This document shows, piece by piece, positions 10,471 to 56,948 of a DNA stretch of 56,948 bases. This stretch comes from a virus. The stretch is from IMG/VR virus record IMGVR_UViG_3300037502_002662, positions 1-56,948 of that record. One strand, written 5' to 3'. A program made the translations under genes and the position numbers. Each line of letters opens with the position of its first letter. The first letter of the stretch is position 1. Under the pieces are notes generated by a model, which saw only the letters and a list, made by a program, of their open reading frames with translations, was not told where the DNA came from and made no database searches.

Positions 10471-10794
10471 ATGTCAAGGGTTTTTATACTTAACAATAAT
10501 CTACACAATTATGATAAAGCCAAACGTTTTGGAGAATTAGTTAATGTTACTCAGGGCCGCTTACCTATATTTAAAACAGATACTGTTTTAAATATGGTAA
10601 GTTTTGGTTTAAAAAATTTTACTAAGGATGACTATTTATTAGTCTCTGGACCAGTTCTATTAAATATACTGGCTACGACTATATTATATGAGAAGTTTGA
10701 TAATTTTAAGCTGCTCATATTTGATGCTAAAAAGCAAGATTATGTAGTTAGACACATTACTAAGGAAAATATTAGGGCAATTTGTGGTATATAA
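10471..10794 (+). CDS. Hypothetical protein
   Basis: A 107-residue protein with ATG 10471 behind AAAGGAGTG; the GTG at 10462 is part of the binding site. The pattern SRVFILNNNLHNYDKAKRFG, with later DDYLLVSGPVLLNILA, suggests an alpha/beta fold. No family recognised. It stands between the promoter-like gap and the next gene, a candidate single-strand-binding protein. Confidence 0.65.
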   Translation: MSRVFILNNNLHNYDKAKRFGELVNVTQGRLPIFKTDTVLNMVSFGLKNFTKDDYLLVSGPVLLNILATTILYEKFDNFKLLIFDAKKQDYVVRHITKENIRAICGI

Positions 10795-10833: not shown

Positions 10834-11583
10834 ATGTCAAAAAATGAAATTATGGAAAAGCAACAAAATGAACTTATGGAAAATATTGAGGCTCCATTAG
10901 GTTTCGAAGATGAAGAAAAAGGTGATATGATTATACCTCGTGTAAAAATTGTACAAACTCTATCACCTGAAAGAAAAGATAAGATTGCTGAAGAAGGCGA
11001 CATAATCAATTCTTTAACTAAAGAAAAATTAAATGGTAAAGTGTTTATTCCTGTCTTTAAATTCAATTCTAATATAGAATGGAGACCACGCTCTGAAGGA
11101 GGAGGCATTGTCTGTATAGCAAGAGATGGTAAAATTGGTGTAACTAATGATGGTAGTACAAAAATTTGTAAACAGTGCCGTAGAAATAAGTTTGATAATA
11201 GTAAACAAGGTAAAGATGCAATACCTAAATGTACCAAGTATATTAATTTCTTTGGGTTTATGGAAGATAGCATGATACCTATCATTATTAGTTTTGGTAA
11301 AACAAATTATAATGAAGGAAGAAAATTATACAGCTTAGCAAAAGTTACTATGCAAAATATGTGGAACCATAAATATACGTTACAAGAAAAGCTCATGTCA
11401 AAGAATGGTAATGAATGGTATATTATTGATGTAGTACCAGCAGGCCCCACAACTGAAGAACAAAGAGCTCACGGAAGTACATTATATAAACAATTTAGAT
11501 ATGCTGACTTAAATGTAGATACTGAAGAAGAAACTGATCCTACAATGGCTAGTGATGAAGAAATTAAAAGTGTAGAATTTTAG
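10834..11583 (+). CDS. Putative single-stranded DNA-binding or recombination accessory protein
   Basis: A 249-residue acidic-tailed protein behind AAAGGGGG. The core has IPRVKIVQTLSPE and EGDIINSLT followed by FIPVFKF, then a four-Cys cluster (ICKQC, IPKC). The C-terminus is acidic (TEEETDP, ASDEEIKSVEF), like many ssDNA-binding proteins. It lies immediately before the primase-helicase gene. I cannot name the family with certainty, so the role is inferred from context, the acidic tail and the metal site. Confidence 0.55.
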   Translation: MSKNEIMEKQQNELMENIEAPLGFEDEEKGDMIIPRVKIVQTLSPERKDKIAEEGDIINSLTKEKLNGKVFIPVFKFNSNIEWRPRSEGGGIVCIARDGKIGVTNDGSTKICKQCRRNKFDNSKQGKDAIPKCTKYINFFGFMEDSMIPIIISFGKTNYNEGRKLYSLAKVTMQNMWNHKYTLQEKLMSKNGNEWYIIDVVPAGPTTEEQRAHGSTLYKQFRYADLNVDTEEETDPTMASDEEIKSVEF

Positions 11584-11636: not shown

Positions 11637-14594
11637 TTGAACTGGCCAGAATATCGCAATCGTATTCTTGCTGAAATAGACAATGAAGCCTTTTATATGT
11701 CAGAGTTAGACAATGTAATAAGGCGTGGCAGCGAATTAAAAGCTGAGTGCCCTTTCTCAGAACTTCATGAAAACCAATCCGATGATACTCCCTCGTTTAC
11801 AGTTAATTTAGACAAGGGTGTTTATTATTGCCATACTTGTCATAGTAAAGGTAATGTGCATACATTATATAAAACATTATATGGCCTAACATCAACAGAG
11901 GCTTGGTTTGAATTAGGTGATGCTTTAAATATACCAAGGCCTGACACTAGCGAACCATTTAGACCAGAGATACCTACAGGTCTTGTAGGTAAATTTCATC
12001 AGAATTTAATTAATCAAACAGGTCCATTAAGAGATGTTTTACGTAAAAAACGGGGCTTAACAGATGAAACATTGAAGCGTTTTCAGCTTGGTTGGGATGG
12101 AGAAAGGATTACAATACCTATATATGATGAGTACAATAGATTAGTTAATTTTCGTAGGTACAAATGGAATAGTAATAATGACCAATGGAAAGTATTAAAT
12201 TACGAAGATGAATTAGGAAATACATATGGTGAAGTAAGGATTTTTGGTATTGAAAACCTAATTAATGATGATATAGAAGAGATTATATGGTGCGAAGGTG
12301 AAATGGATCGTATAATTTTAGAGCAGTACAGCTTCCCAGCAGCATGCCCTACAGGTGGTGCAGGTACTTGGAGAAATGATTGGGCTAAGTATTTTAGAAA
12401 CAAAAAACGTGTATACATTTTACAAGATAATGATAAAGCAGGTAAAGAAGCAACAGAAAAGATATGTCATAAGTTGTATAGAGTAACAGATCCATACGTA
12501 CCTAAATGGCCAGATGATTTTTTGCATAAGGGTGACGCTACTGATTTCTTTGTAAAATGTGGTTATACTAAAGAAGATCTACAAAAGTTACTGGATAATG
12601 CTGAAAAATTTATACATCCTAATTCTTCTGAATTGACGCAAACAGACACTGAGGCTATTGCGGTACATTTAGCAGACTCTGCTAATGCTACTCTACACGG
12701 TAAAAAGATTAAAGTACCTGTAATGGTATCTGGTAAGGATAATACACCATACATTTGCCCTAAGAAGATAAAGTATTATTGTGGTGATCAAGCGGATGCC
12801 GAGAATAAGCGCTGTCAGTCATGTGATCTTGCATTTACAGGTGGTTTAAAATTAATAGAACTCGGTGCGCACAATAAAGACACTTTAAAGTTAATAAAAT
12901 GTAGTGAAAAGAAACAACAGGAGGTACTCAAACATATAGCAGGTATAAATAAGAATTGTCCTAAGTGTACAATAACTGTAGAAGAGTCAATGAACTTAGA
13001 AGAAATTAGAATGATACCTAAAGCTGAGGACTCTAACGTATCAAAAGTACATGAATATGTAGTTAGATTAGGTTACAGTATATCTGATGATATTAAAACT
13101 AATAAAAGATATACTATGGTAGGTTATATGTGGCCAGACCCACATACACAATATGCAACATACATATTTGATAAAGCAATACCAGAGAAAGACTTTATAT
13201 CTGAATTTGAAATGACTGATGAGATATATAATCAATTAAAAATATTTCAAGTAAATAAAGGTCAAACAATAGAAGATAAATTTAATGAAATACATAGAGA
13301 TTTAGAAAGAAATATTACTCATATATGGGAACGACGTGATGTAGCAATAGCGGTAGATTTAATATATCATACTGTTTTAAATTTTTACTTTCAAGGACAG
13401 TTTGTAAAACGTGGTTGGGGAGAATTACTTATTATAGGTGACTCTGGACAAGCAAAAACTACACTTGTAGAAAGACTTATGAGTCACTATAGGCTGGGTG
13501 AAATGTATTCAGGTGAGTCATCAAAGCGTACAGGCCTTGTATACAATTTACAACAAAACAACAAGAGATGGTTTTTAGTATGGGGCGCGTTTCCACTAAA
13601 TGATGGTGGTTTAATAGCTATAGATGAATTATCTGGTATAGATGAAAAAGAATTAGCTATTATGTCAGATGTACGTTCATCAGGTATAGCTAAGGCAACT
13701 GGTGTTATAACTGCTGAAACAAATGCACGGACAAGAGCTATTTATATATCTAACCCTAGAAATGGTAGGCCCCTTAATACAGAAACATTTGGTGTAGAAG
13801 CAGTGCTAAAATTATTTGGCAAAACAGAAGACGTCAGAAGGCTAGACCTAGCCATAGCAGTCGCATCCGGTGATGTAAACCCAGCTTTAATTAATAGGCG
13901 TATTTCTCAATTAGATGATGTACAACATGTATATACCTCTGATTTATGCAATTTACGCGCCCTATGGGCATGGAGCCGCAGGGCAGATAACATCAGGTTT
14001 ACAAATGAGTGTATACAATATATACTAGATGCTGCTACTAAAATGGGTAATAAGTATTCTTCCAGTGTACCTATTGTAGAAGCTGCAGACCAACGTATGA
14101 AAATAGCAAGATTAGCAGTAGCAACCGCTTGCTGTATGTTTTCTACAGAAGATGGCGAGAATGTAATTGTAGATAAAGGACATGCAGAATTTGTAGTTAG
14201 CTTTATGGACAGAATTTATAGTTCGAAAAGTTTTGCTTATGATAAACTATCTGAACGTGATAAACAAAATACAGATGCTTCTGCAGATAAACTAGAAAAA
14301 CTTAGAAAAGAGTTCATTTTATTGCCTCTACCTGACCATAATGAAATGGCTAGAATACTGTATAACTTACCATACTTCAATAGATACACACTTGAAGATT
14401 ATTCTGGTTTACCTAAAGATGAACTAAGAGCCTTACTTAAGTTTTTAACTACAAGACATTTAATAGAAAAAACTCGTGGTGATTATAGACGCTATCCATT
14501 AGGTACCGAATTTTTTGCAAGTATTTTAAATAGACCTATCTTAACAGATGAGCTTAATAAAGTACGTAAAGAACATTATAATACAGAGTATTAA
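11637..14594 (+). CDS. Primase-helicase: CHC2/TOPRIM primase fused to MCM-like AAA+ helicase
   Basis: A 985-residue protein from TTG 11637 behind AAAGGGGG. Residues about 30-75 form a DnaG-type zinc ribbon (Cys38, His44, Cys65, Cys68). A TOPRIM domain has Glu220 (WCEGEMD) and ILQDNDKAG (Asp264, Asp266). A second Cys cluster spans 373-443. The C-terminal AAA+ module is MCM-like rather than DnaB-like: Walker A GDSGQAKTT (600-608), Walker B GGLIAIDELSG (656 on), the insert SGIAKATGV, sensor-1 Asn in YISNPRNG, and an arginine pair in DVRRLDLA. A winged helix ends it. It primes and unwinds DNA at the fork. A primase-MCM fusion is known from Bacillus cereus prophage (BcMCM). Confidence 0.85.
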   Translation: MNWPEYRNRILAEIDNEAFYMSELDNVIRRGSELKAECPFSELHENQSDDTPSFTVNLDKGVYYCHTCHSKGNVHTLYKTLYGLTSTEAWFELGDALNIPRPDTSEPFRPEIPTGLVGKFHQNLINQTGPLRDVLRKKRGLTDETLKRFQLGWDGERITIPIYDEYNRLVNFRRYKWNSNNDQWKVLNYEDELGNTYGEVRIFGIENLINDDIEEIIWCEGEMDRIILEQYSFPAACPTGGAGTWRNDWAKYFRNKKRVYILQDNDKAGKEATEKICHKLYRVTDPYVPKWPDDFLHKGDATDFFVKCGYTKEDLQKLLDNAEKFIHPNSSELTQTDTEAIAVHLADSANATLHGKKIKVPVMVSGKDNTPYICPKKIKYYCGDQADAENKRCQSCDLAFTGGLKLIELGAHNKDTLKLIKCSEKKQQEVLKHIAGINKNCPKCTITVEESMNLEEIRMIPKAEDSNVSKVHEYVVRLGYSISDDIKTNKRYTMVGYMWPDPHTQYATYIFDKAIPEKDFISEFEMTDEIYNQLKIFQVNKGQTIEDKFNEIHRDLERNITHIWERRDVAIAVDLIYHTVLNFYFQGQFVKRGWGELLIIGDSGQAKTTLVERLMSHYRLGEMYSGESSKRTGLVYNLQQNNKRWFLVWGAFPLNDGGLIAIDELSGIDEKELAIMSDVRSSGIAKATGVITAETNARTRAIYISNPRNGRPLNTETFGVEAVLKLFGKTEDVRRLDLAIAVASGDVNPALINRRISQLDDVQHVYTSDLCNLRALWAWSRRADNIRFTNECIQYILDAATKMGNKYSSSVPIVEAADQRMKIARLAVATACCMFSTEDGENVIVDKGHAEFVVSFMDRIYSSKSFAYDKLSERDKQNTDASADKLEKLRKEFILLPLPDHNEMARILYNLPYFNRYTLEDYSGLPKDELRALLKFLTTRHLIEKTRGDYRRYPLGTEFFASILNRPILTDELNKVRKEHYNTEY

Positions 14595-19920: not shown

Positions 19921-20030
19921 TCACGGACTCGTAAAATAGTCTTATGCGTGTTCGTGATACACAAGTTAATATTATAATATTAATAAGCTATCACGAACAC
20001 GTAAAATTTAAAACAAACACGCTACATGTA
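19921..20030 (+). promoter_or_regulatory. Promoter/operator module, copy B
   Basis: Sites TCACGGACTCGTAA (19921, +), GCGTGTTCGTGAT (19945, inverted) and TATCACGAACACGTAA (about 19990, +) surround the -10 sequence TATAATATTAATA. CACGCTACATGTA follows at 20018. It fills the 230-base gap before the winged-helix/polymerase gene run and matches the modules at 2492 and 26230. The winged-helix product encoded next is a natural candidate ligand. Confidence 0.7.
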
Positions 20031-24035: not shown

Positions 24036-24653
24036 ATGGTAAAAAAAGCAATAAAAGCAATTTGGACAACAAAATTAGAGAAAGGATTAGATGCAAATAG
24101 TTACTTTGAAGGTTTTTCTGATGAAGTGGAAGAAAAATTATACGAAAAAGTAAAAATTAAAGTTGCTGGATATAGTCAAAACGAAGGTTCAAGAGAATTT
24201 GAGATTTTAAAAAAAGAAAAAATTGAAAAAATTATAAACAATATAGACATGGAAGAAATTTGGAAAAGGACATTTAAAAAGGCTAATGGATATACTTCTG
24301 GTACCGCATATACCTATATTGATACTAGAACAGGAAAAATTGTAACATCATGGTTGCAACAATATAATGAGTTACACCCTTGGGATAGCTTTTACGAAAT
24401 AGTGTTGTGTTCTATCAAAACTCCTGTATTTGATTTTGAAGCAAAAGACTTACTAGATGAAGAAGAACAGAAAGATTTTTTTAGTCAAGACAATTACATT
24501 GATATTGAAGAATTTATAAGAGGAAAATATGGAGATGAAGAATTAGAAGAAAGAATAGAAGAAGCCATAGATTGGTATGCATGTGAATTTGTACCAGATT
24601 GGGATAATATAGAAAATCAGATTATAAATTTATATAGAAAAGTAGAAGAATAA
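24036..24653 (+). CDS. Hypothetical acidic protein
   Basis: A 205-residue protein behind AAGGAGGTA. Acidic and aromatic-rich (EEAIDWYACEFVPDWDN), with no recognised domain. It follows the previous gene by 25 bases and probably shares its transcript. Confidence 0.7.
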   Translation: MVKKAIKAIWTTKLEKGLDANSYFEGFSDEVEEKLYEKVKIKVAGYSQNEGSREFEILKKEKIEKIINNIDMEEIWKRTFKKANGYTSGTAYTYIDTRTGKIVTSWLQQYNELHPWDSFYEIVLCSIKTPVFDFEAKDLLDEEEQKDFFSQDNYIDIEEFIRGKYGDEELEERIEEAIDWYACEFVPDWDNIENQIINLYRKVEE

Positions 24654-24683: not shown

Positions 24684-24709
24684 CCCGGGGGACTAAGGGG
24701 ACCCCCGGG
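24684..24709 (+). other. GC-rich hairpin in an AT-rich gap
   Basis: CCCGGGGG at 24684 pairs fully with CCCCCGGG at 24702 (loop ACTAAGGGGA). It is strikingly GC-rich for this genome, lies upstream of the next gene's binding site, and has no T-tract. It may be an RNA structure or an mRNA stabiliser; class unknown. Confidence 0.6.
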
Positions 24710-24747
24710 CATGAATCCTAGCGTAAACGATAAAGGAGGTGCTGATA

Positions 24748-24963
24748 ATGCCTAATATTTATTCGTCAATTCATTTCAGAAGTGATGAAAAAGTGTCAGC
24801 TGATATGAAAATTAATGAATCGGCTGAGACAGGTGTTTATGCTGTGTTATCAATAGGGGATATAAAATTCTTTGGAACAATCAAACAAATAAGGTCGATA
24901 ATGCATCAAATTTATGCTAAGATAGATGATTTTGAAGAATCCGCACAGTATTATGAAAAGTAG
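24748..24963 (+). CDS. Hypothetical small protein
   Basis: A 71-residue protein; ATG 24748 lies behind AAAGGAGGTG. Beta-rich N-terminal half (VYAVLSIGDIKFFG) and a helical C-terminus. Family unknown. Confidence 0.65.
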   Translation: MPNIYSSIHFRSDEKVSADMKINESAETGVYAVLSIGDIKFFGTIKQIRSIMHQIYAKIDDFEESAQYYEK

Positions 24964-24981
24964 GGTACAGTATCACACATT

Positions 24982-25063
24982 AAATGGCATAAACGTGTAA
25001 AAACAAATATTAGCCATTTGTTAAAGATGGCATTATAAAATCACTATTTAGGAGTGATATGTA
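24982..25063 (+). pseudogene. Decayed copy of the 55-residue gene at 25819
   Basis: The stretch from AAATGGCATAAACGTGTAAA to GGAGTGATATGTAA matches the second half of the gene at 25819-25986 with internal deletions, and no start or open frame remains. Together with the following gene it is one copy of a tandem duplication. Confidence 0.75.
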
Positions 25064-25300
25064 ATGTTCAATAATAGAATAGAGCTATGGGAAGTAGGGT
25101 TCACCTGTGGTAAAATAGAACTATGGGAAGTAGCATTTCATGAAGGTGGACAGTACTACAAAGTTATAACAGATAACTATTCTTCATTTGATTATGACAA
25201 TGAAATACCAGAATGGCATGACATGAATGATATTTCTAATGAACTAATAAGAGATATCGAATATATACAATCAATTATTATGCAGGGAGGTGGAAAGTAA
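25064..25300 (+). CDS. Hypothetical small protein (duplicated unit, copy 1)
   Basis: A 78-residue acidic protein. It has a related but frameshifted copy at 25986. Compared with that copy, its N-terminus lacks about 18 residues and carries IELWEV twice. The ribosome site is the GGAGTGA at the end of the decayed upstream gene. Function unknown. Confidence 0.6.
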   Translation: MFNNRIELWEVGFTCGKIELWEVAFHEGGQYYKVITDNYSSFDYDNEIPEWHDMNDISNELIRDIEYIQSIIMQGGGK

Positions 25301-25518: not shown

Positions 25519-25572
25519 GTGTCTAATGCAGCCGAGGACGGTCCCAAGCCCGTGTAAATGCAGAGGGGACAT
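25519..25572 (+). ncRNA. Twister self-cleaving ribozyme 1
   Basis: The core GGTCCCAAGCCCG, then GTAAATGCAGAGGG, preceded by TAATGC, is the twister consensus. P1 is GTGTC/GACAT (25519-23 with 25568-72), P2 is TGC/GCA, P4 is ACGG/CCGT, and the loop CCC can form the pseudoknot with GAGGG. Cleavage is expected between 25524 and 25525 (U-A). It lies 26 bases before the start codon of the next gene. Confidence 0.85.
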
Positions 25573-25597
25573 AAAAATTACAAAGGGAGGCAATATA

Positions 25598-25795
25598 ATG
25601 AAAAGAATTAAGTGCCCACTTTGCTCTACGCCTTCAACAGCAACAGAATGGAATAATAAGACACGAGAATATTTTGATACAGGCATTGCAGAGCCCTACA
25701 TTATAATATCTGTAATTGAAGCAGCTATATATGTTTGTCCTAAATGTGAGGAGGAGTTAGGAGGTGAGATACTAGAACAAAACTTTATAGATTAA
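25598..25795 (+). CDS. Zinc-ribbon protein downstream of twister 1
   Basis: A 65-residue protein; ATG 25598 lies behind AAAGGGAGG. CPLC and CPKC pairs about 40 residues apart form a zinc ribbon. A longer frame from 25460 would run through the ribozyme and is rejected. Its mRNA 5' end would be trimmed by the ribozyme. Function unknown. Confidence 0.7.
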   Translation: MKRIKCPLCSTPSTATEWNNKTREYFDTGIAEPYIIISVIEAAIYVCPKCEEELGGEILEQNFID

Positions 25796-25818
25796 GATTA
25801 AACAAAGGGGGACCAATT

Positions 25819-25986
25819 ATGTATGACTACAATAAAATGTCAAAAATGAGAGAAGCTATCAAAAAACCTTATGGCTACAAATGGCATAAACGTGTAAATA
25901 AAATGACTGATAAACAAATATTAGCCATATACAAACGATTTGTTAAAGATGGCGTTATAAAACCACTATTTAGGAGTGATGTGTAA
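25819..25986 (+). CDS. Small basic protein (duplicated unit, intact copy)
   Basis: A 55-residue basic protein behind AAAGGGGG, containing HKRVNKMTDKQILAIYKRF, a helical segment common in short phage proteins. A decayed copy lies at 24982. Function unknown. Confidence 0.65.
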   Translation: MYDYNKMSKMREAIKKPYGYKWHKRVNKMTDKQILAIYKRFVKDGVIKPLFRSDV

Positions 25987-26220
25987 TGTTCGATAATAGA
26001 ATAGAACTTATAAAATATTTAGAGAGTATCATAGGCACAGATGACATAGCAGTTGTTAAAGTAGGGTTCATCTGTGGTAAAATAGAACTATGGGAAGTAT
26101 TACAAAGTTATAACAGATAACTATTCTTCATTTGATTATGACAATGAAATACCAGAATGGCATGAATGATATTTCTAATGAACTAGTAAGAGATATCGAC
26201 TATATACAAGTAATATTTTA
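25986..26220 (+). pseudogene. Frameshifted copy of the gene at 25064
   Basis: The frame opens at ATG 25986 and reads MFDNRIELIKYLESII, then stops at 26118-26120 after a deletion relative to copy 1. The remaining homologous DNA runs to about 26218. This copy retains about 18 N-terminal residues missing from copy 1. Confidence 0.7.
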
Positions 26221-26229
26221 AAATAACCC

Positions 26230-26322
26230 TTATACGTGTCCGTGATAAAATTAATAGTACTATAATATTAATAAGGTTATCACGGACACGTAAAATTTAA
26301 AATAAGCATGTTACGTGTTATC
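26230..26322 (+). promoter_or_regulatory. Promoter/operator module, copy C
   Basis: TTATACGTGTCCGTGATAA (26230) and TTATCACGGACACGTAA (26277) form an inverted pair around TATAATATTAATA. GCATGTTACGTGTTATC follows at 26306. The arrangement matches modules A and B. It precedes twister 2, so the ribozyme would sit in the leader of this transcript. Confidence 0.7.
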
Positions 26323-26356
26323 TATGAGTATAATAATATGTATAATAATTATATTA

Positions 26357-26418
26357 GCTTAATGCGGCCTGTAGATTTTCTACAGACGGTCCCAAGCCCG
26401 TGTAAACGCAGAGGGAGC
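26357..26418 (+). ncRNA. Twister self-cleaving ribozyme 2
   Basis: The same core as twister 1 (ACGGTCCCAAGCCCGTGTAA, then GCAGAGGG), with an added P3 hairpin CTGTAG/CTACAG. P1 is short: GCT 26357-59 with AGC 26416-18. P2 is TGCG/CGCA and P4 is ACGG/CCGT. Cleavage is expected between 26360 and 26361. It lies downstream of promoter module C. Confidence 0.85.
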
Positions 26419-26440
26419 ATACAATACATAAGGAGGTATT

Positions 26441-26709
26441 CTATGGCAAGAAGTACAAACTAGTGTGGGACAATCAAAAAGTTATAGGTGAAGTTAAAAA
26501 GTCCCAAGAAAAAAGGTGGTGATAACGTTAAATGCAAGACAAGGAATAAAGTACATATACCTAAAAGGTTTCTACATACGTAAAAAAAGACAACGAAAAG
26601 ATGGTATCAAAAGACCAATTGAAGAAAACAGCACTATATTGTTAAATTAATGCAAGAAGCTATTGACCAAGCAGATGATTTTGACATTATAATATGGTTC
26701 TGTACATAA
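26441..26709 (+). pseudogene. Decayed small-gene remnants
   Basis: An AAGGAGG site leads to a seven-codon frame at 26442. A 43-residue frame (GTG 26519 to 26650, KYIYLKGFYIRKKRQRKDG) and an overlapping 19-codon tail (26650-26709, EAIDQADDFDIIIWFCT) look like broken pieces of one or more former genes. No intact gene is supported in this stretch. Confidence 0.45.
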
Positions 26710-26721
26710 AGGGGGACACGT

Positions 26722-27663
26722 ATGAAAGTAAAAGACTTAAATGTAGGTGATAATGTAAACATAATACTAGCGGTAAAAGAAGCTCAGCTAAAATCTACAA
26801 AAGGTGGTAAACCTTACTTGGCGATGACATTATTTGATGGAGATGAAATAATATCAGCCAATCACTGGGATTATTACTCACAATATATACCAAAACCAAA
26901 TGATATTGTAGACATTATAGCTAACGTATCAACATGGAAAGAAAAGAAGCAGCTAACAATTCAATCATTCAAAGTCAGAAGAGACTTGGATATTAAGCAG
27001 TTTGCACCTCAAGGTAACATCAATGTGGAGCAGTATATTAAAACATTAAATGGTCTAATTAACAGTATCAACAACCCAGTACTAAAAGAATTAACAGAAC
27101 AGATAATTGTAGACAATCTACCTAATCTAAAAGTTAAGCCTGCAGCAAAGACATTTCATCACGCCTATGTTGCAGGGTTGCTTAAACACTCTGTAGACGT
27201 AGCTTCACATGCAGCAAATATTGCATCATACACAGATAACTGCTCTGAAGACTTATGTATAGCTGGAGGCCTTCTGCATGATATTGGTAAACTATGGACT
27301 TACAATATTGATGGAGTAGATATAACAATGTCTTTAAATGGAGAATTAATTGAACACATAAGCAAAGGCCTCATAGAGATTGAAAAATATAGAAATAAAG
27401 AGAACACAGGTTTAATAGATTTATTACAACATATAATTGCTAGTCATCATGGTAAGCTTGAGTATGGATCCCCAGTGACACCAAAATTCCTAGAAGCGTG
27501 GATAGTGCATTTCTGTGATAACCTTGATGCTAAAATAAATATAGTACAAGAAATAAATCAAAACTTAAAAAAAGGTGAGCTATATACAGATAAGCAATGG
27601 GCATTAGAAAATCAAAAAATGATATCCCAAGAATACATTAAGTCTATTGTAGGAGGTGCTTAA
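26722..27663 (+). CDS. YhaM-like 3'-5' exoribonuclease (OB + HD domains)
   Basis: A 313-residue protein behind AAAGGGGG. The N-terminal OB fold reads VGDNVNIILAVKEAQLK, then KPYLAMTLFDGDE. The HD domain has FHHAYVAGLLKHSVDVA, GGLLHDIGKL, IIASHHGKLEYGSP and HFCDNLDAK. This is the layout of the Firmicutes YhaM/CBF1 family, which degrades RNA or ssDNA 3' to 5' with metal ions. A phage copy could remodel RNA turnover. It begins 13 bases after the decayed region. Confidence 0.85.
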   Translation: MKVKDLNVGDNVNIILAVKEAQLKSTKGGKPYLAMTLFDGDEIISANHWDYYSQYIPKPNDIVDIIANVSTWKEKKQLTIQSFKVRRDLDIKQFAPQGNINVEQYIKTLNGLINSINNPVLKELTEQIIVDNLPNLKVKPAAKTFHHAYVAGLLKHSVDVASHAANIASYTDNCSEDLCIAGGLLHDIGKLWTYNIDGVDITMSLNGELIEHISKGLIEIEKYRNKENTGLIDLLQHIIASHHGKLEYGSPVTPKFLEAWIVHFCDNLDAKINIVQEINQNLKKGELYTDKQWALENQKMISQEYIKSIVGGA

Positions 27664-27664
27664 A

Positions 27665-28474
27665 GTGGGTTTCTACAAACTGTTCTATTGTGATATCTGT
27701 GGGGCGGAGTACCCTCCCCACTTGTTAAAAGATTTAGGCAATTCAACACATTTGTGTGAAACATGTATAACACCTAAATTAGTGGTCGTAAGAGATATAG
27801 CCAACATCATAGATGAAAATTCTAATAAATATTTTGCAGCAATACAAAAAATGGCAAAAGAACACGATGTATTAGTGCTAGAAACTATTGTACAAAATGA
27901 AAAAGAATTTAAGGAAGTTGCTTCACTTGAGATACCTACTCTTGTGTTGCAACCGTGTCAATTTGATACATCAATTATCAAACATAATATGGAAAAATAT
28001 CAAACAGTAAGGGCCATAAAAAGTATAATAAAAGAGTCAAATATAGATAAGCCTACTGTTATAATATTCAACAGATCAGACTTAATAGGAAAGCCACTGG
28101 CACTTGCACTCCTAGATAAAGACATAAATGCAACGCCTATTGTAATACACTCTAAAACACCACATGAACGTGCCGCCACGCTTCTTGAACAAGCCGATAT
28201 TGTTGTGTTGGCTACATCTAAAACGCAGAATATTAATGTAAAAGGTAAAGTGGTCATTGATATAAGTGGTGATAATTCATCACTTAAAGACCAGTGTAGA
28301 TACGTTTCTATGTCTGAGGTAGGTAAGCGTACTACACAAAGACTAATCAAAGATGTTAGGAGATGGTGGTATGGAAACATGCAAGAATGGCGTAAAGGTC
28401 TACAGTATGGGTTGGATAATGCTAATAATAACGATAATAGCATTGATAGTAGTGCCGGGGAGGCAGGAAGATGA
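27665..28474 (+). CDS. FolD-like protein with N-terminal zinc ribbon
   Basis: A 269-residue protein from GTG 27665 behind AGGAGGTG. CDIC and CETC pairs form an N-terminal zinc ribbon. Then a FolD (methylene-THF dehydrogenase/cyclohydrolase) pattern runs through: VIIFNRSDLIGKPLALALL, IVIHSKTPHE, ADIVVLATSK, KVVIDIS and MSEVGKRTTQRL. In NKYFAAIQKMAKE the usual catalytic Lys (four after Tyr) appears to be Ile, so dehydrogenase/cyclohydrolase activity is doubtful. It may bind NADP/folate for the ThyX pathway or have a new role. Confidence 0.65.
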   Translation: MGFYKLFYCDICGAEYPPHLLKDLGNSTHLCETCITPKLVVVRDIANIIDENSNKYFAAIQKMAKEHDVLVLETIVQNEKEFKEVASLEIPTLVLQPCQFDTSIIKHNMEKYQTVRAIKSIIKESNIDKPTVIIFNRSDLIGKPLALALLDKDINATPIVIHSKTPHERAATLLEQADIVVLATSKTQNINVKGKVVIDISGDNSSLKDQCRYVSMSEVGKRTTQRLIKDVRRWWYGNMQEWRKGLQYGLDNANNNDNSIDSSAGEAGR

Positions 28475-30691: not shown

Positions 30692-30732
30692 TTGTACAAA
30701 TAACTACGTATATTACAGGATGTTGGAACTAC

Positions 30733-30762
30733 AGTGTATCATTTTGATACACTTTTTTTTTC
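30733..30762 (+). terminator. Rho-independent terminator
   Basis: AGTGTATCA/TGATACACT hairpin with a 3-base loop and nine T residues. It ends the rightward early/accessory transcription before the repeat island. Confidence 0.95.
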
Positions 30763-30777
30763 TGTAAAACTTACCAA

Positions 30778-31395
30778 TTTTCGCTACGTAGCAATGTAGC
30801 GAAAAAGTGTTCAAACCCAGTGTTTCCAATATATTGAGCATCCCTGAGGGTATACTTTTTCGCAACCTTCGTCGCCTTTGCTACTTTTGAACGTAAAAAT
30901 AGGTTTATTTAATAAAAATTTTATCTAAGTATGTGTTGCGGTGGTTATACAGTTATCTTTCTGTAATTATTCAAAAAAGAGCATATATCTAAACTACAAT
31001 ATTTCTTTATATATTAAAGAAAATGTATATAAAGGGATTTTTTTTATTTATTGTTATTAAAATATTTTAAATATACATTAAATACTATATAATATATGTT
31101 TTTATAAAATATCTTATTAGATATAATACTTTATTAGAAAATATACAAAATATAAATTGTATGTAGATAAGTACTCTATCAGCATATTAAATTAAACAAA
31201 AATTTTTTATTATAAAACTAAAAAATGCGTTGCGAAGGTAGCGAAAGTAGCGAAGGTAACGAAAAAAATATCTTTCCAAATTGCCTATAGGTTGGAATCA
31301 CTAAGTTTGAAGGCTCTTAAAATTTTCGCTACGTAGCGAAAAACTGTACACTTCATAGCTAAAAACGTAGCGAAAACGTAGCGAAAAATTATTTA
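30778..31395. repeat. Iteron arrays flanking a very AT-rich segment (candidate replication origin)
   Basis: Units of the GTAGCGAAA type occur at 30778-30806 (as an inverted pair), 30862-30895 (inverted), 31226-31268 (direct, four units) and 31323-31392. The last includes a perfect 20-base palindrome centred on CTACGTAG and two ACGTAGCGAAAA units. Between 30.9 and 31.2 kb the DNA is nearly pure A+T. Inverted iterons around an AT-rich zone resemble origins with an unwinding element. No gene is seen. Confidence 0.6.
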
Positions 31396-31479
31396 TTGAG
31401 TTTAAAAATTTTAAAATAATTTTAAAAATCATTAAATAACTTAAAAACAACCAAGCTAAACGACATTTTCTACCAATTT

Positions 31480-31830
31480 TATCAAGTGCGGATCAGCGCG
31501 GCGCGGCAGCTAAGTCCTCTTAATATTATATAAACCATTAGCCACAGCGATACAATGTTAAATAAACTCAAAATAAAATACAAATGTAGCTTAGTAACGA
31601 AGTGCCTTTTTACGCGGGTCAATCTGCAAAGATTCAAAAACTATAAGACTGAGCGGCCTCGTCTTATCGAGGCAGCACCGCGACATAGACCCCCTCTTGC
31701 GTCGTGGCATTGCATAGGCTAATTGAGGCTATAATAGTATAAGTAATTAATAGTTATGGCTAATCGGCGCCGCAAAGAGGTTGTGTAGTTAATACATAGC
31801 TCAGGCTAATCGGCGCCGCATCAGCACAAA
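31480..31830. repeat. Non-coding stretch with GC-rich repeats and stems
   Basis: Two exact GGCTAATCGGCGCCGCA copies (near 31757 and 31814) and related forms (GGCTAATTGAGGCT near 31711) occur here. A stem GCCTCG/CGAGGC and a 7-pair CCGCGAC/GTCGTGG stem lie near 31650-31700. GC-rich islets in an AT-rich background and no open frame suggest protein-binding or structured-RNA function. Confidence 0.6.
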
Positions 31831-31863
31831 ATAAAAAGAAGCGACTATTCATCGTCGCTTCTT
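31826..31863 (-). terminator. Rho-independent terminator of the leftward unit
   Basis: On the minus strand AAGAAGCGAC and GTCGCTTCTT form a 10-bp stem followed by TTTATTTT. It ends the leftward unit starting near 32.9 kb. Confidence 0.85.
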
Positions 31864-32019
31864 ACTAACATTTCCATTAGCTTAAGCTTTGCTGATAGCA
31901 AGTCATCATACATAAATCTTTTGTAGGAACTTATAGCATCTATTATTTTGTTGTCGTCATCCATAAAGCATATACTAACAAGATCATACAGTATTCTTAA
32001 TTCTTTTTGTAGTTAACAT
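31845..32019 (-). pseudogene. Small leftward gene with a one-base frameshift in an A run
   Basis: A perfect AAGGAGG precedes ATG (32019), but the frame stops after 11 codons. Removing one A from the A5 run near the start gives a 57-residue product (KELRILYDLVSICFMDDDN and on to LVRSDDE) ending at 31845. It could be a sequencing error, a phase-variable A run or a programmed slip. It is the last gene before the leftward terminator. Confidence 0.55.
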
Positions 32020-32049
32020 TTGTAAACCTCCTTAAGTTATTAAATTGTT

Positions 32050-32070
32050 GAAGGGCTTGTACAGCCCTTC
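32050..32070 (-). other. Hairpin between two leftward genes
   Basis: GAAGGGCT and its complement form a stem just after the stop of the gene ending at 32075. The T-tract is weak, so it may allow partial read-through. Confidence 0.6.
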
Positions 32071-32074
32071 GTAT

Positions 32075-32845
32075 TTATTTGGATACCAACATCTCCCTAA
32101 TTTTACTAAGTATTTCTTTACTATCTGAAGCCTTTAGTTTTTCAACATTGATTGTAGTTAACATATTTTCGATTTCTTTTTGTTTTTCTAATGCTTCAGC
32201 AGCTTTTGGATTACCGCTGTCTCTAAGCGTTTTCAATTGTTCTTCAACTTCAAGTAACTTTTTGTACCTTTCACTATTAGGGTCAAAGTCAGCTTTTGAT
32301 TTCATTATGGACTTTTTGGATTGAATATTTCTGATTGCCTTCCTTAATTTTTCTTGGTCGTTAGCTAACTCTTGGAGTTCATCTTCAGTATATTCTACTG
32401 TAGATCTTTTTGGACCACCACTTTTAGACTTAGGCTTGTCCGCAGCGATTCTAAGTAAATTTTCTGCAATCGCTGCTGTTACAAGCTTTTTATAGTTATC
32501 GATTGTCATTGTTTTTGATTTTGTGCGACTTCTTTTTGATTGTTGGCTCTTAATCATTCTGTCGATTTCATCATCCGTTGCTTGTTTTAGAAATTCAACG
32601 TCAACTTCTTGTAAGTTAGTAACTTGTGATATTAATTCATCCATAGCGTCATGTGATTTTTTACTTTCTTCAACCTTTGATTGATACTTTTCAACATCAG
32701 TAGCTATTTTGTTTAACACATCGTTTGCAACTTCTTCACTGGTAGCTACTAATTGTGCTGTGTAGGTCAACGACCTACCAGCTGTACTTTGCTGCTTGCC
32801 TCCTTCAGCAAAAAGTCCTTTCAAGTTGTTTTTGTTTGACATCAT
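32075..32845 (-). CDS. Coiled-coil protein with two IQSKK motifs (unrecognised family)
   Basis: A 256-residue, highly charged, helical protein; ATG 32845 lies behind GTGGAGG on the minus strand. Two related segments are visible: RMIKSQQSKR (about 96-105), followed by a Tyr and a helix, and KAIRNIQSKKS (169-179), followed by Tyr-x5-VEEQLK. The protein at 34353 carries two more. I do not recognise the family. The surrounding DNA has dispersed repeats, so a DNA-binding or partition role is possible but unproved. Confidence 0.7.
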   Translation of the reverse strand: MMSNKNNLKGLFAEGGKQQSTAGRSLTYTAQLVATSEEVANDVLNKIATDVEKYQSKVEESKKSHDAMDELISQVTNLQEVDVEFLKQATDDEIDRMIKSQQSKRSRTKSKTMTIDNYKKLVTAAIAENLLRIAADKPKSKSGGPKRSTVEYTEDELQELANDQEKLRKAIRNIQSKKSIMKSKADFDPNSERYKKLLEVEEQLKTLRDSGNPKAAEALEKQKEIENMLTTINVEKLKASDSKEILSKIREMLVSK

Positions 32846-32903
32846 TTTACCAACCTCCACTTTGTAATTTTTTTTGAAAAGAAATTTTTCTTTTCTTAAT
32901 TAT

Positions 32904-32912
32904 ATTATACTA
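32904..32912 (-). promoter_or_regulatory. Leftward promoter -10
   Basis: Minus-strand TTTGTAGTATAATATAA, 59 bases before the start codon, is a variant of the TTTGTGGTATAATA promoter family seen elsewhere in this genome. Confidence 0.6.
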
Positions 32913-32939
32913 CAAATAACTGAAATTTAATTAAGCAAT

Positions 32940-33300
32940 TTGGATTTGGAGCAGCGACCACTAGTGTGATTATGTCGTTTTATATCTTTGGTCCGTTTTA
33001 TGCAGCAGGTTTTGGCTAATCATTATCGCATGTAATTCTACTATGCTTGGTCAAATTGACGCTGCATGATGCGCTATGTAGTTCAATCTAACTGATGTTG
33101 TTTTTATTGCTGCTTGATTAGGATTTACCAAAGCTTCATGAAGTATTGCATAGCTAGTTCTAATCGTTGCTTCTATGTTAACTTAGATTTAGCTGACTGC
33201 CGCTGAATTCATAAAGTGATATTGTAATATTATTTAGTTTGACTGAAGCCGCATAGGGGTATGCCTTTAGCAATTATTAGTTGAACGGCGCTGATCCAAT
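32940..33300. repeat. Non-coding array of degenerate ~20-bp repeats
   Basis: About every 33-50 bases a related sequence recurs, e.g. GGTCAAATTGACGCTGCATG (33049), TAGTTCTAATCGTTGCTTC, TAGATTTAGCTGACTGCCGC, TAGTTTGACTGAAGCCGCAT, TAGTTGAACGGCGCTGATCC (33279). Units share a TAG-TT-AAYYG-CGCTGCAT-like pattern with the copies at 31.5-31.8, 33.8, 34.0 and 35.2 kb. No gene is seen. Confidence 0.55.
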
Positions 33301-33331
33301 TTAAAATTACTTGTGTAAACTTCAACATTTT

Positions 33332-33341
33332 GTGGTATAAT
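33332..33341 (+). promoter_or_regulatory. Extended -10 promoter
   Basis: TTTGTGGTATAATATAA lies 24 bases before the next gene. A weak TTGTGT -35 lies 19 bases upstream of the -10. Confidence 0.65.
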
Positions 33342-33364
33342 ATAAATAAGAGGTTGATTTTAAA

Positions 33365-33742
33365 ATGAAAAAACTAACAGCTGCTGACAAAAATATTATA
33401 TTGGAGGTGGTTAGCAATAAATTAAACTTGATAGCATACGACGATGCTACAAAACTGAGAGATGACTTATGGCAAGAAAATTTCATCAGTTTGCTTCAGG
33501 CTAAATACAATTTACGATGTGAAACATATAGCGATGAGCTACAGCTGCTAAAAGAACATTTGATGCTGCTAGTTGAAATCTATTTGAGGAAAATTGACAA
33601 ACACCAAGAGATTAATGCATTCTTCGATATCAAAATAACAGTGAATGACGTTGAATATGAAATACCGTTAGATTGCGATGTGTATAATACGCTGGTAGAT
33701 TTTATTGATAAAAAACTTGGTATTGAAGATGATAGTGAGTAG
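33365..33742 (+). CDS. Hypothetical protein in its own transcription unit
   Basis: A 125-residue acidic protein. The N-terminal two thirds are helical, then FFDIKITVNDVEYEIPLD suggests a beta hairpin. It has its own promoter and a terminator overlapping its stop codon. It is the only rightward gene in the island. Function unknown. Confidence 0.7.
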   Translation: MKKLTAADKNIILEVVSNKLNLIAYDDATKLRDDLWQENFISLLQAKYNLRCETYSDELQLLKEHLMLLVEIYLRKIDKHQEINAFFDIKITVNDVEYEIPLDCDVYNTLVDFIDKKLGIEDDSE

Positions 33743-33768
33743 CCATTAGTGGCTACTTTCTTTTTTTA
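33739..33768 (+). terminator. Rho-independent terminator
   Basis: GTAGCCA-TTAG-TGGCTAC followed by TTTCTTTTTTT, overlapping the stop codon of the preceding gene. Confidence 0.9.
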
Positions 33769-33892
33769 CTTTTTATGCGGCAGCTGATGGTAATGCTAAA
33801 CCGTTTTATAGCAATTGCTTAGCCCAATCAAAGCTTTTATGGTGTTGCGTAGTCTTAACCAATCGACGCTGATTACAGAATATTTAAAATGT

Positions 33893-34140
33893 TTAGAATA
33901 TTCTGACAATTTTGAAGACTCGAAGTACTTAGAATATTCTGACAATTTCGAAGACTCGAAGTACTTAGAATATTCTGACAATTTCGAAGACTCGCGTTGT
34001 GTGACAATTGATTTGGCTGATCGAGGCCGCATAGCATTCATTAGGTAAATTGTCAGAATATTCTGACAATTTTGAAGACACGCATTACCAGAAAAGTGAA
34101 GGCTCGCATTACCAGAATATACATAATATTCTGAATATTC
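33893..34140. repeat. 36-bp tandem repeats and a 26-bp palindrome
   Basis: A 36-bp unit beginning TTAGAATATTCTGACAATTT occurs at 33893, 33929 and (partial) 33965. A perfect 26-base palindrome with core TTGTCAGAATATTCTGACAA is at 34047-34072, and further GAATATTCTGACAATT copies lie near 34125 and at 35.2 kb. These are probably binding sites for a dimeric protein. The minus-strand open frame across them looks like repeat translation. Confidence 0.75.
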
Positions 34141-34217
34141 TGACAATTCAAAGCCTATCTCCCCCTCGGTCTCCACGGCATATTTCCCTTAAATATGCCC
34201 CCTTTAGGGTGAAGAGG

Positions 34218-34319
34218 CTATTTCATTAACCTCTTCATTCTATTTAAACCTTTGAAGGTAGGCTCTATACTCATTTCTTTACATATCCTTAAGTACAATC
34301 TTAAAATCTTTATGTTCAT
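34218..34319 (-). CDS. Small basic protein
   Basis: A 33-residue basic peptide (MNIKILRLYLRICKEM, then LNRMKRLMK) behind CAAGGGGG on the minus strand. It follows the gene ending at 34353 and probably shares its transcript; a GAAGAGG/CCTCTTC hairpin overlaps its stop. Function unknown. Confidence 0.55.
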   Translation of the reverse strand: MNIKILRLYLRICKEMSIEPTFKGLNRMKRLMK

Positions 34320-34339
34320 TTGTTCAACCCCCTTGATTT

Positions 34340-34370
34340 GATGAGTTAAACCTTAAAGGTTTAACTCATC
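34340..34370 (-). other. 31-base palindromic stem over a stop codon
   Basis: GATGAGTTAAACC pairs with GGTTTAACTCATC around a small loop that contains the TAA stop of the gene at 34353-34868. No T-tract follows. It may limit read-through or stabilise the mRNA. Confidence 0.6.
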
Positions 34371-34868
34371 ATTATTTAAGTCTTTTAGTAGTTGTATTAC
34401 ATATTCTTTATCTAATTTTTCTTCTTGATTTTCTAGATGATTTATTAGATTATTTATTGAAGATTTTCTTACACAATATTCAGGAACTGGTTTAATCGTT
34501 TCTTTATGTTCTAGTAACATTTTTTCAATTTCACAAGCTTTATTATATTCTGTTTTATCTTCATCATATTGTGAATTACATTTTTTAGATTGAATTGATT
34601 TTATTGCTCTTAAAGTTTCTTCATAGTTTAGATTTTTAATATCTTCTTGTTCAAATTCTGTGACAAATTTTTTCCTTGGTTCAAAATAAGCTTTAACTTC
34701 TTTTAGTGCTTGTTCATATTCTAGTAGTTTTTTCATTTTTGATTCATAATCTTTTCTTGCTTTTTGTTTTTTCAATCTGCACTTTTTAGTTTGTACATTT
34801 CTTATCTCTTTTTTCACCTCTTTTACATTTTTGAATTTTTTGCTTAATTCTTGTACATTTTTTAACAT
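34353..34868 (-). CDS. Coiled-coil protein with two IQSKK motifs (paralogue of the gene at 32075)
   Basis: A 171-residue basic, helical protein behind AAGGAGGGA. Two segments share the motif of its neighbour: EIRNVQTKKC (21-30), followed by KDYESKMKKLLEYEQAL, and RAIKSIQSKKC (87-97), followed by TEYNKACEIEKMLLEHK. The pattern is I-x-x-(I/V)-Q-(S/T)-K-K-(C/S), about 13 residues, Tyr, then a helix with I/L-E. Family and function unknown. Confidence 0.7.
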   Translation of the reverse strand: MLKNVQELSKKFKNVKEVKKEIRNVQTKKCRLKKQKARKDYESKMKKLLEYEQALKEVKAYFEPRKKFVTEFEQEDIKNLNYEETLRAIKSIQSKKCNSQYDEDKTEYNKACEIEKMLLEHKETIKPVPEYCVRKSSINNLINHLENQEEKLDKEYVIQLLKDLNNDELNL

Positions 34869-34924
34869 TTGTAATCCCTCCTTATTTAATTTTTAAAAGT
34901 TTATTTATTATTTGTTCTAGTTAT

Positions 34925-34933
34925 ATTATACCA
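34925..34933 (-). promoter_or_regulatory. Leftward extended -10 promoter
   Basis: Minus-strand TTTGTGGTATAATATAA, 57 bases before the start codon, matches the promoters at 2692 and 33332. Confidence 0.65.
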
Positions 34934-34989
34934 CAAATTAATAAAAATTATAACCATTTTTTTAATTTAGGCAAAAAATTTTTGATTTA

Positions 34990-35290
34990 AAAAATTTGTT
35001 TAGAAGTTTGAATATTTAAAATATTTTTAAAATTATGAATATTATAAATATTATGAATATATATAAAATATTTTAAATATTATGAATATATAAAAAATTT
35101 TAAATATTATGAATATTATGAATATTATGAATATTTAGAATATTCTGAAAATTTAAAATATTCTGAAAATTTAAAATATTCATAATAGTCCAAAAATTAC
35201 GAAAATTTTGAATATTCTGACAACTACGCCAAGGGTTGAGGCGCACAATCATATAATAAGGAAAGCCCCAAAGCGGCGCATGATTATACT
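34990..35290. repeat. AT-rich GAATATT-type repeats and two GGCGCA-type repeats
   Basis: ATTATGAAT units recur many times between 35035 and 35130. TATTCTGAAAATTTAAAA occurs twice, and GAATATTCTGACAA once near 35210. At 35235 and 35275 two segments GGCGCACAATCAT and CGGCGCATGATTAT resemble the dispersed GC-rich family. No gene lies in 34869-35410. Confidence 0.65.
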
Positions 35291-35378
35291 AATACATAAA
35301 CCATAGTATAGGTCCAAAAGTTACACGAAATATGGACGTAGAGTCAGAATAGGCTAGAGCTATAGCAAATGACATTCT

Positions 35379-35388
35379 AACGTATAAT
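35379..35388 (+). promoter_or_regulatory. Candidate late promoter box at the terminase operon
   Basis: AACGTATAATATTTATTAGG immediately precedes the small terminase gene. The same AACGTATAAT box precedes the scaffold gene (40045). Both give very short leaders. It may be read by the phage sigma factor. Confidence 0.4.
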
Positions 35389-35410
35389 ATTTATTAGGAG
35401 GTGAAATATT

Positions 35411-56771: not shown

Positions 56772-56948
<177 letters not shown>

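Follow-up and report, generated by a model that had tools for sequence, protein, structure and literature searches.

Type-P1 twister ribozymes are defined by three essential stems, P1, P2 and P4, an optional P3, and two pseudoknots, T1 and T2 (PMC5408937). The functions proposed for twisters and hammerheads alike were termed largely speculative in the same review (PMC5408937). Clustered hammerheads flanking single prophage genes were reported in 2011; they cleave in vitro, and one of the sets does so in E. coli as well (PMC3088659). Hammerheads and twisters of bacteria have been found enriched in each other's vicinity and around Mu-like phage genes (PMC10085705). The theta ribozymes of gut phages are likewise small self-cleaving ribozymes in Caudoviricetes genomes with a role in RNA processing, but unlike the twister leaders considered here they adopt an HDV-like fold and cut at the 3' ends of tRNAs, not in mRNA leaders (PMC10879173). 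The insulator RiboJ raises both transcript and protein levels (PMC6206723).

The locus described here lies in the IMG/VR record IMGVR_UViG_3300037502_002662, a bacterial virus genome of 56,948 nt, the whole of which was analysed and is referred to as the window. Direct terminal repeats of 130 nt (99% identical, at 5-134 and 56819-56948) indicate that the window is probably a complete phage genome, and its genes encode a DNA polymerase, primase, ligase, sigma factor, terminase, portal and major head protein. A gene-poor stretch between two gene blocks (30700-35400) contains many repeats of 9-nt period, of the AATATT and GCGAAGGTA types. No record in the annotated phage and plasmid collections closely resembles the ribozyme region, and the sole phage match found there is an unannotated twister of Roseburia phage Shimadzu. 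A search of viral contigs for relatives via the YhaM protein yielded none; five closer relatives (L194-L198) were obtained via the DNA polymerase, at 50-60% identity. Ribozyme identity, covariation, leader position, multi-copy occurrence and decay in a relative were all computed here.

Identity and fold of the twister pair

Two twisters had been placed at 25519-25572 and 26357-26418 in a preliminary description of this DNA, and an Rfam cmscan of the whole window bore this out with RF03160 matches on the + strand at 25520-25571 (copy 1) and 26356-26419 (copy 2). Copy 2 scores 73.0 bits (E 8.3e-15, E values being for the whole window), above the gathering score of 67.2 bits for this family, and copy 1 scores 60.8 bits for the same family (E 2.7e-11), below that gathering score. 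Every core base is kept in copy 1, with core columns matching those of the 46-row alignment described below, and its lower score is probably due to the missing P3; most twister-P1 matches elsewhere likewise score 50-66 bits. No other family reached its gathering score anywhere in the 56,948-nt window. A GC-rich hairpin at 24684-24709 was considered as a third ribozyme and rejected, having no Rfam support and a fold no better than shuffles. This hairpin belongs to the stretch preceding the gene at 24748 (24684-24735, part of its leader), and the hairpin loop CUAAGG could pair with a downstream CCUAG.

The essential stems are formed in both copies, as are P4 with T1 (CCC/GGG) and the pairs of both pseudoknots. 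P1 consists of four pairs in copy 1 (UGUC/GACA) and is weak in copy 2, where three pairs (GCU/AGC) are followed by an A.A mismatch. P2 reads UGCA/UGCA in copy 1 and UGCG/CGCA in copy 2, a compensated change whereby the fourth pair is A-U in the former and G-C in the latter. P3 (CUGUAG/CUACAG) is found in copy 2 only; of the covarying P3 hairpin claimed earlier for this copy the stem itself holds, copy 1 offering no P3 within the window for comparison. At the conserved nucleotides of L1 and L4 and at the scissile U^A, both copies match all invariant or nearly invariant columns, and the predicted cleavage sites, U25524^A25525 and U26360^A26361, agree with the twister consensus U^AA. Compared with the type-P1 twister RF03160 (Roth et al. 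2014, in PMC5408937), the core, P1/P2/P4, the optional P3, T1/T2 and the cleavage site are thus alike, with no difference of fold, the one discrepancy being the sub-threshold score of copy 1. Minimum free energy folding, which omits pseudoknots and is uninformative here, gave the two ribozyme stretches z-scores of -0.5 and -0.9, only marginally better than those of shuffles.

Covariation was assessed in an alignment of 46 twisters from the window, the related phage, other viral contigs, one named phage genome and bacterial genomes. Many rows were recruited by a core pattern biased towards conserved sequence in L4 and J (a pattern on which the Rfam model does not depend), and the rows are partly non-independent, some coming from one genome. 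Across P1, P2, P4, T1 and T2, 93.6% of cells are paired, where shuffles reach 75.7% and slid registers no more than 45%, both sides change in 13 of the 16 pairs, and none of 500 shuffles matched the real alignment on any of five measures. T1 is paired in 100% of rows through the types CCC/GGG, UCC/GGA, CAC/GUG, CGC/GCG and CUC/GAG; T2 is paired in 98.9%, with covariation in a single row only, whereas that of T1 is clear. The earlier statement that P1, P2, P4 and the pseudoknots are compatible is upheld both by the pairs formed in the two copies and by their covariation. On these sequence comparisons both motifs are real twisters with a fold under selection, and their cleavage is predicted.

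Position upstream of start codons and neighbouring genes

Each copy is followed, about 10 nt past its 3' edge, by a Shine-Dalgarno sequence on the + strand, AAAGGGAGG at 25582-25590 for copy 1 (from sequence reading and a scripted scan) and AAGGAGG at 26430-26436 for copy 2 (from sequence reading), which stays unpaired in the predicted fold of copy 1 and in the centroid structure of copy 2. The start codons lie 26 nt and 23 nt past copies 1 and 2, respectively. The twisters had been described as lying 20-30 bases before a ribosome binding site: the leader position is correct, and the distance quoted is that to the start codon.

The same placement recurs among the surveyed copies. A Shine-Dalgarno-led start of an ORF of at least 30 codons occurs within 60 nt downstream of 27 of 50 copies, as compared with 10.6% of positions drawn at random on the same strand and 1.8% of those on the opposite strand at the same loci, an enrichment whose size is approximate because the random positions spanned genes as well as intergenic gaps. 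In a second scan, 15 of 46 copies had a start at 18-30 nt, where chance gave a mean of 2.0 and a maximum of 9 over 2000 draws. Over the 28 nt past the ribozyme, copies of the same genome are more alike than those of different genomes (4 of 2000 label shuffles were as high), a likeness to which common base composition could add. By the scan used, more than 40% of surveyed copies are away from any start codon. That of Roseburia phage Shimadzu is no leader: this unannotated twister-P1 (L145, 6001-6046; LR596903.1, about 24284-24335) follows the lysis genes and faces a converging integrase gene downstream.

Copy 1 leads a 65-aa ORF (25598-25795, +) that is Cys-rich and zinc-ribbon-like, its Pfam zinc-ribbon matches being weak and below cut-off. 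A 55-aa ORF of the function-unassigned family PHROG 6038 follows (25819-25986, +), on the RNA that two cuts would release, and the cleavage sites, both on the + strand, are 836 nt apart with these two small intact ORFs between them. The stretch 25926-26220 (+) duplicates a segment lying about 0.94 kb away, as detected by direct repeats D1-D3 and D5 and by matches in three frames; up to 25986 it holds the 3' end of the 55-aa gene, and from there on a decayed repeat of a 78-aa gene whose other copy is at 25064-25300. The duplicated block consists of the 55-aa and 78-aa genes, the first being broken at 24982-25300 and the second at 25819-26220. The ribozymes, 836 nt apart, lie downstream of these blocks and so may have been duplicated along with them.

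The gene led by copy 2, whose breakage the preliminary description had missed, is a remnant (26443-26690, +) recognised by tblastn with its L194 homologue: its ATG opens six codons only, and pieces of the 108-aa homologue match in three frames. In this single contig the frame breaks may represent either real decay or an assembly error. The next intact gene (26722-27663, +) encodes a YhaM-like 3'-5' exoribonuclease with a Pfam HD domain, matching the NCBIfam YhaM model at E 1.3e-50, below the equivalog cut-off of that model, and the YhaM structure PDB 9h3f at E 7.7e-40; homologues of it occur in three related phages. The adjoining ORF at 27656-28474 begins with a Cys-rich part that is joined to a partial FolD-like NAD-binding domain.

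The earlier placement of one twister behind a putative promoter module was also supported, copy 2 being directly downstream of the repeated promoter-like module C (26229-26346, +), which contains an inverted repeat with 33-nt arms, ACAYGT motifs and TATAAT at 26329 and 26341, and whose hairpin folds with a z-score of -8.3. The module occurs three times (A, 2538-2602; B, 19966-20030; C, 26255-26319) with a conserved TATAATATTAATA, within the inverted repeat in C, and ACAYGTWACRTGT-like sites, and might be read by the sigma factor of the phage itself (7603-8205). Either TATAAT would place the transcript start about 8-20 nt upstream of the copy-2 cut; given that module B has a ribosome binding site at the equivalent place, the start may instead lie near the upstream TATAATATTAATA.

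Clustered copies and decay in a related phage

The leader-positioned pair had been thought unusual, which did not survive a survey of 32 records with twister-P1, searched in full with the Rfam model: 14 hold between two and five copies sharing one strand of a single contig, roughly half of all copies are in leader position, and clusters are already published (PMC3088659, PMC10085705). Same-strand copies are mostly 0.2-3 kb apart (range 0.2-5 kb), with spacings such as 313 nt in G001, 220 nt in G010, 425 nt in G408, 1.05 kb in G039 and 1.17 kb in G002, and numbers reach three in G404 and five in G004; records G006 and G007 look like one and the same prophage. Record G001 repeats the layout of the window, namely ribozyme, Shine-Dalgarno, small gene, ribozyme, Shine-Dalgarno and gene. 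Since only 6 of 391 sampled Clostridia-class genomes had a twister-P1 match, the element is uncommon overall and clustered where present. Taken as at least two same-strand self-cleaving ribozymes flanking single genes or short blocks in a phage, a clustered array is present in the window. It resembles the prophage hammerhead clusters (PMC3088659) in having several same-strand ribozymes around small phage genes, some immediately upstream, for which mRNA processing was proposed, and differs from them in ribozyme class, in the measured start-codon spacing and in the decaying, non-orthologous set found in a relative. A suspected adjacency of twisters to tRNA genes at some loci was dropped when ARAGORN called none adjacent. 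On a Lokiarchaeota-labelled contig (L187, about 1450-1550, -), a twister is followed directly by an apparent 5' half of a tRNA, where ARAGORN likewise calls none.

The relative L194/G417, with a DNA polymerase 60% identical to that of the window phage and a YhaM-like protein 44% identical, carries one intact twister (11129-11180) as part of the leader of a 128-aa gene, its T1 being compensated (UUCC/GAGGA). Two decayed twisters precede its 136-aa gene (10604-10654) and its YhaM-like gene (about 13020-13065), with alignment scores of 41 and 42 that exceed the best of 1000 shuffles. A decayed twister before the YhaM gene of the window itself was rejected, being a 7-nt match only. The records of two more distant relatives, G418 and G419, contain no credible twister (a weak 18-bit match in G419 was discarded as devoid of the twister core), and their YhaM gene stands behind an ordinary leader. 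As the YhaM exoribonuclease gene is also present in relatives without twisters, an association of the two was abandoned. No twister was found at an orthologous position in any two of the phages or in any relative compared, which argues against the regulation of one particular gene and gives no sign of gene-specific selection. From these sequences, the twister appears to have been gained, copied before different genes and then lost or partly decayed within the phage lineage.

Leader processing as the proposed role of cleavage, and the alternatives

The simplest account is that the two type-P1 twisters serve as self-processing mRNA leaders, a reading that we consider evenly poised and in which cleavage, the insulation or stabilisation of mRNA and the benefit to the phage are all putative. 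Each twister would fold during transcription and cut at U^AA, near the 5' end of the ribozyme itself, removing all upstream RNA and leaving a downstream mRNA that would begin with a 5'-OH. The new 5' end would carry a compact double-pseudoknot (P2/P3/P4/T1/T2) and, about 10 nt past the ribozyme, an exposed Shine-Dalgarno. Cleavage of copy 1 would detach the 65-aa gene from the operon sequence that precedes it, and copy 2 would trim the leader of RNA initiated at module C, besides cutting any read-through RNA. The outcome would be an insulated, context-independent leader for each gene or gene block, like that given by RiboJ, from an accessory cassette of ribozyme and Shine-Dalgarno apparently gained, duplicated before different genes and partly decayed. 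The three-pair P1 of copy 2, its broken gene and the copies away from any start weigh against the leader reading.

The placement of RiboJ, in which the ribozyme separates the ribosome binding site from the promoter or RNA upstream and leaves a structured, uniform 5' leader (PMC6206723), is reproduced in the window, where each twister is directly upstream of an exposed ribosome binding site. RiboJ is synthetic, a satellite-RNA ribozyme with an added hairpin (PMC6206723), whereas insulation by the twister leaders is what we infer. That twister-P1 and its Shine-Dalgarno form a mobile phage leader cassette, a natural RiboJ-like insulator providing a uniform, structured 5'-OH leader for each gene, is tentatively suggested and on balance doubtful.

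The main rivals of the self-processing leader are polycistron cutting devoid of a leader role and neutral spread. In the former, as proposed for prophage hammerheads (PMC3088659), the ribozymes would cut the operon into gene-length pieces so as to uncouple upstream from downstream stability, and the Shine-Dalgarno distance would reflect short intergenic gaps, in keeping with the clustering of copies 0.2-5 kb apart on one operon strand. It is nonetheless rather unlikely, given that the distance to the downstream start is narrow in copies near a start (median 24, interquartile 21-32) whereas that to the upstream stop varies widely (8 to about 290 nt), and that copy 2, directly behind a promoter-like module, would have little RNA to remove. 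A selfish or neutral passenger, spread by duplication with its leader and tolerated because its cleavage is intergenic, would bring no benefit; the non-orthologous positions, the decayed copies in L194, the absence from two relatives and the broken gene behind copy 2 would all suit it. We deem it improbable, as the intact core bases and pairings of both window copies, the compensated change in P2 and the T1 pairing in every row point to purifying selection on a catalysis-competent structure.

An off-switch, by which the 5'-OH mRNA would be degraded by host RNases and downstream expression lowered, has its analogy in glmS, where ribozyme cleavage leads to degradation of the glmS mRNA (PMC6154101). 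It seems very improbable here, as a type-P1 twister would keep nearly its whole fold at the new 5' end, which would be expected to hinder 5' exonucleases, and neither a ligand-binding domain nor a conserved extra stem was seen in the 46-row alignment. Two same-strand twisters would yield precisely the termini on which RtcB-type ligation acts. It is nevertheless scarcely credible that an 836-nt RNA (25525-26360) with 5'-OH and 2',3'-cyclic phosphate ends is released and ligated into a circle, no RtcB being found in the window phage and five other twister-bearing phage records, and hammerhead arrays having yielded no detectable circular products (PMC3088659).

From comparative evidence, we read the twisters in these phages as accessory leader cassettes for RNA processing, with a presumed function, that are duplicated, shift from gene to gene and decay. 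The window pair adds two well-supported members to the twister class and no new kind, in an arrangement that recurs in many other phages and prophages and is thus real but not exotic. The tight anchoring to start codons, common to many unrelated phages, makes the function of phage ribozymes directly testable.
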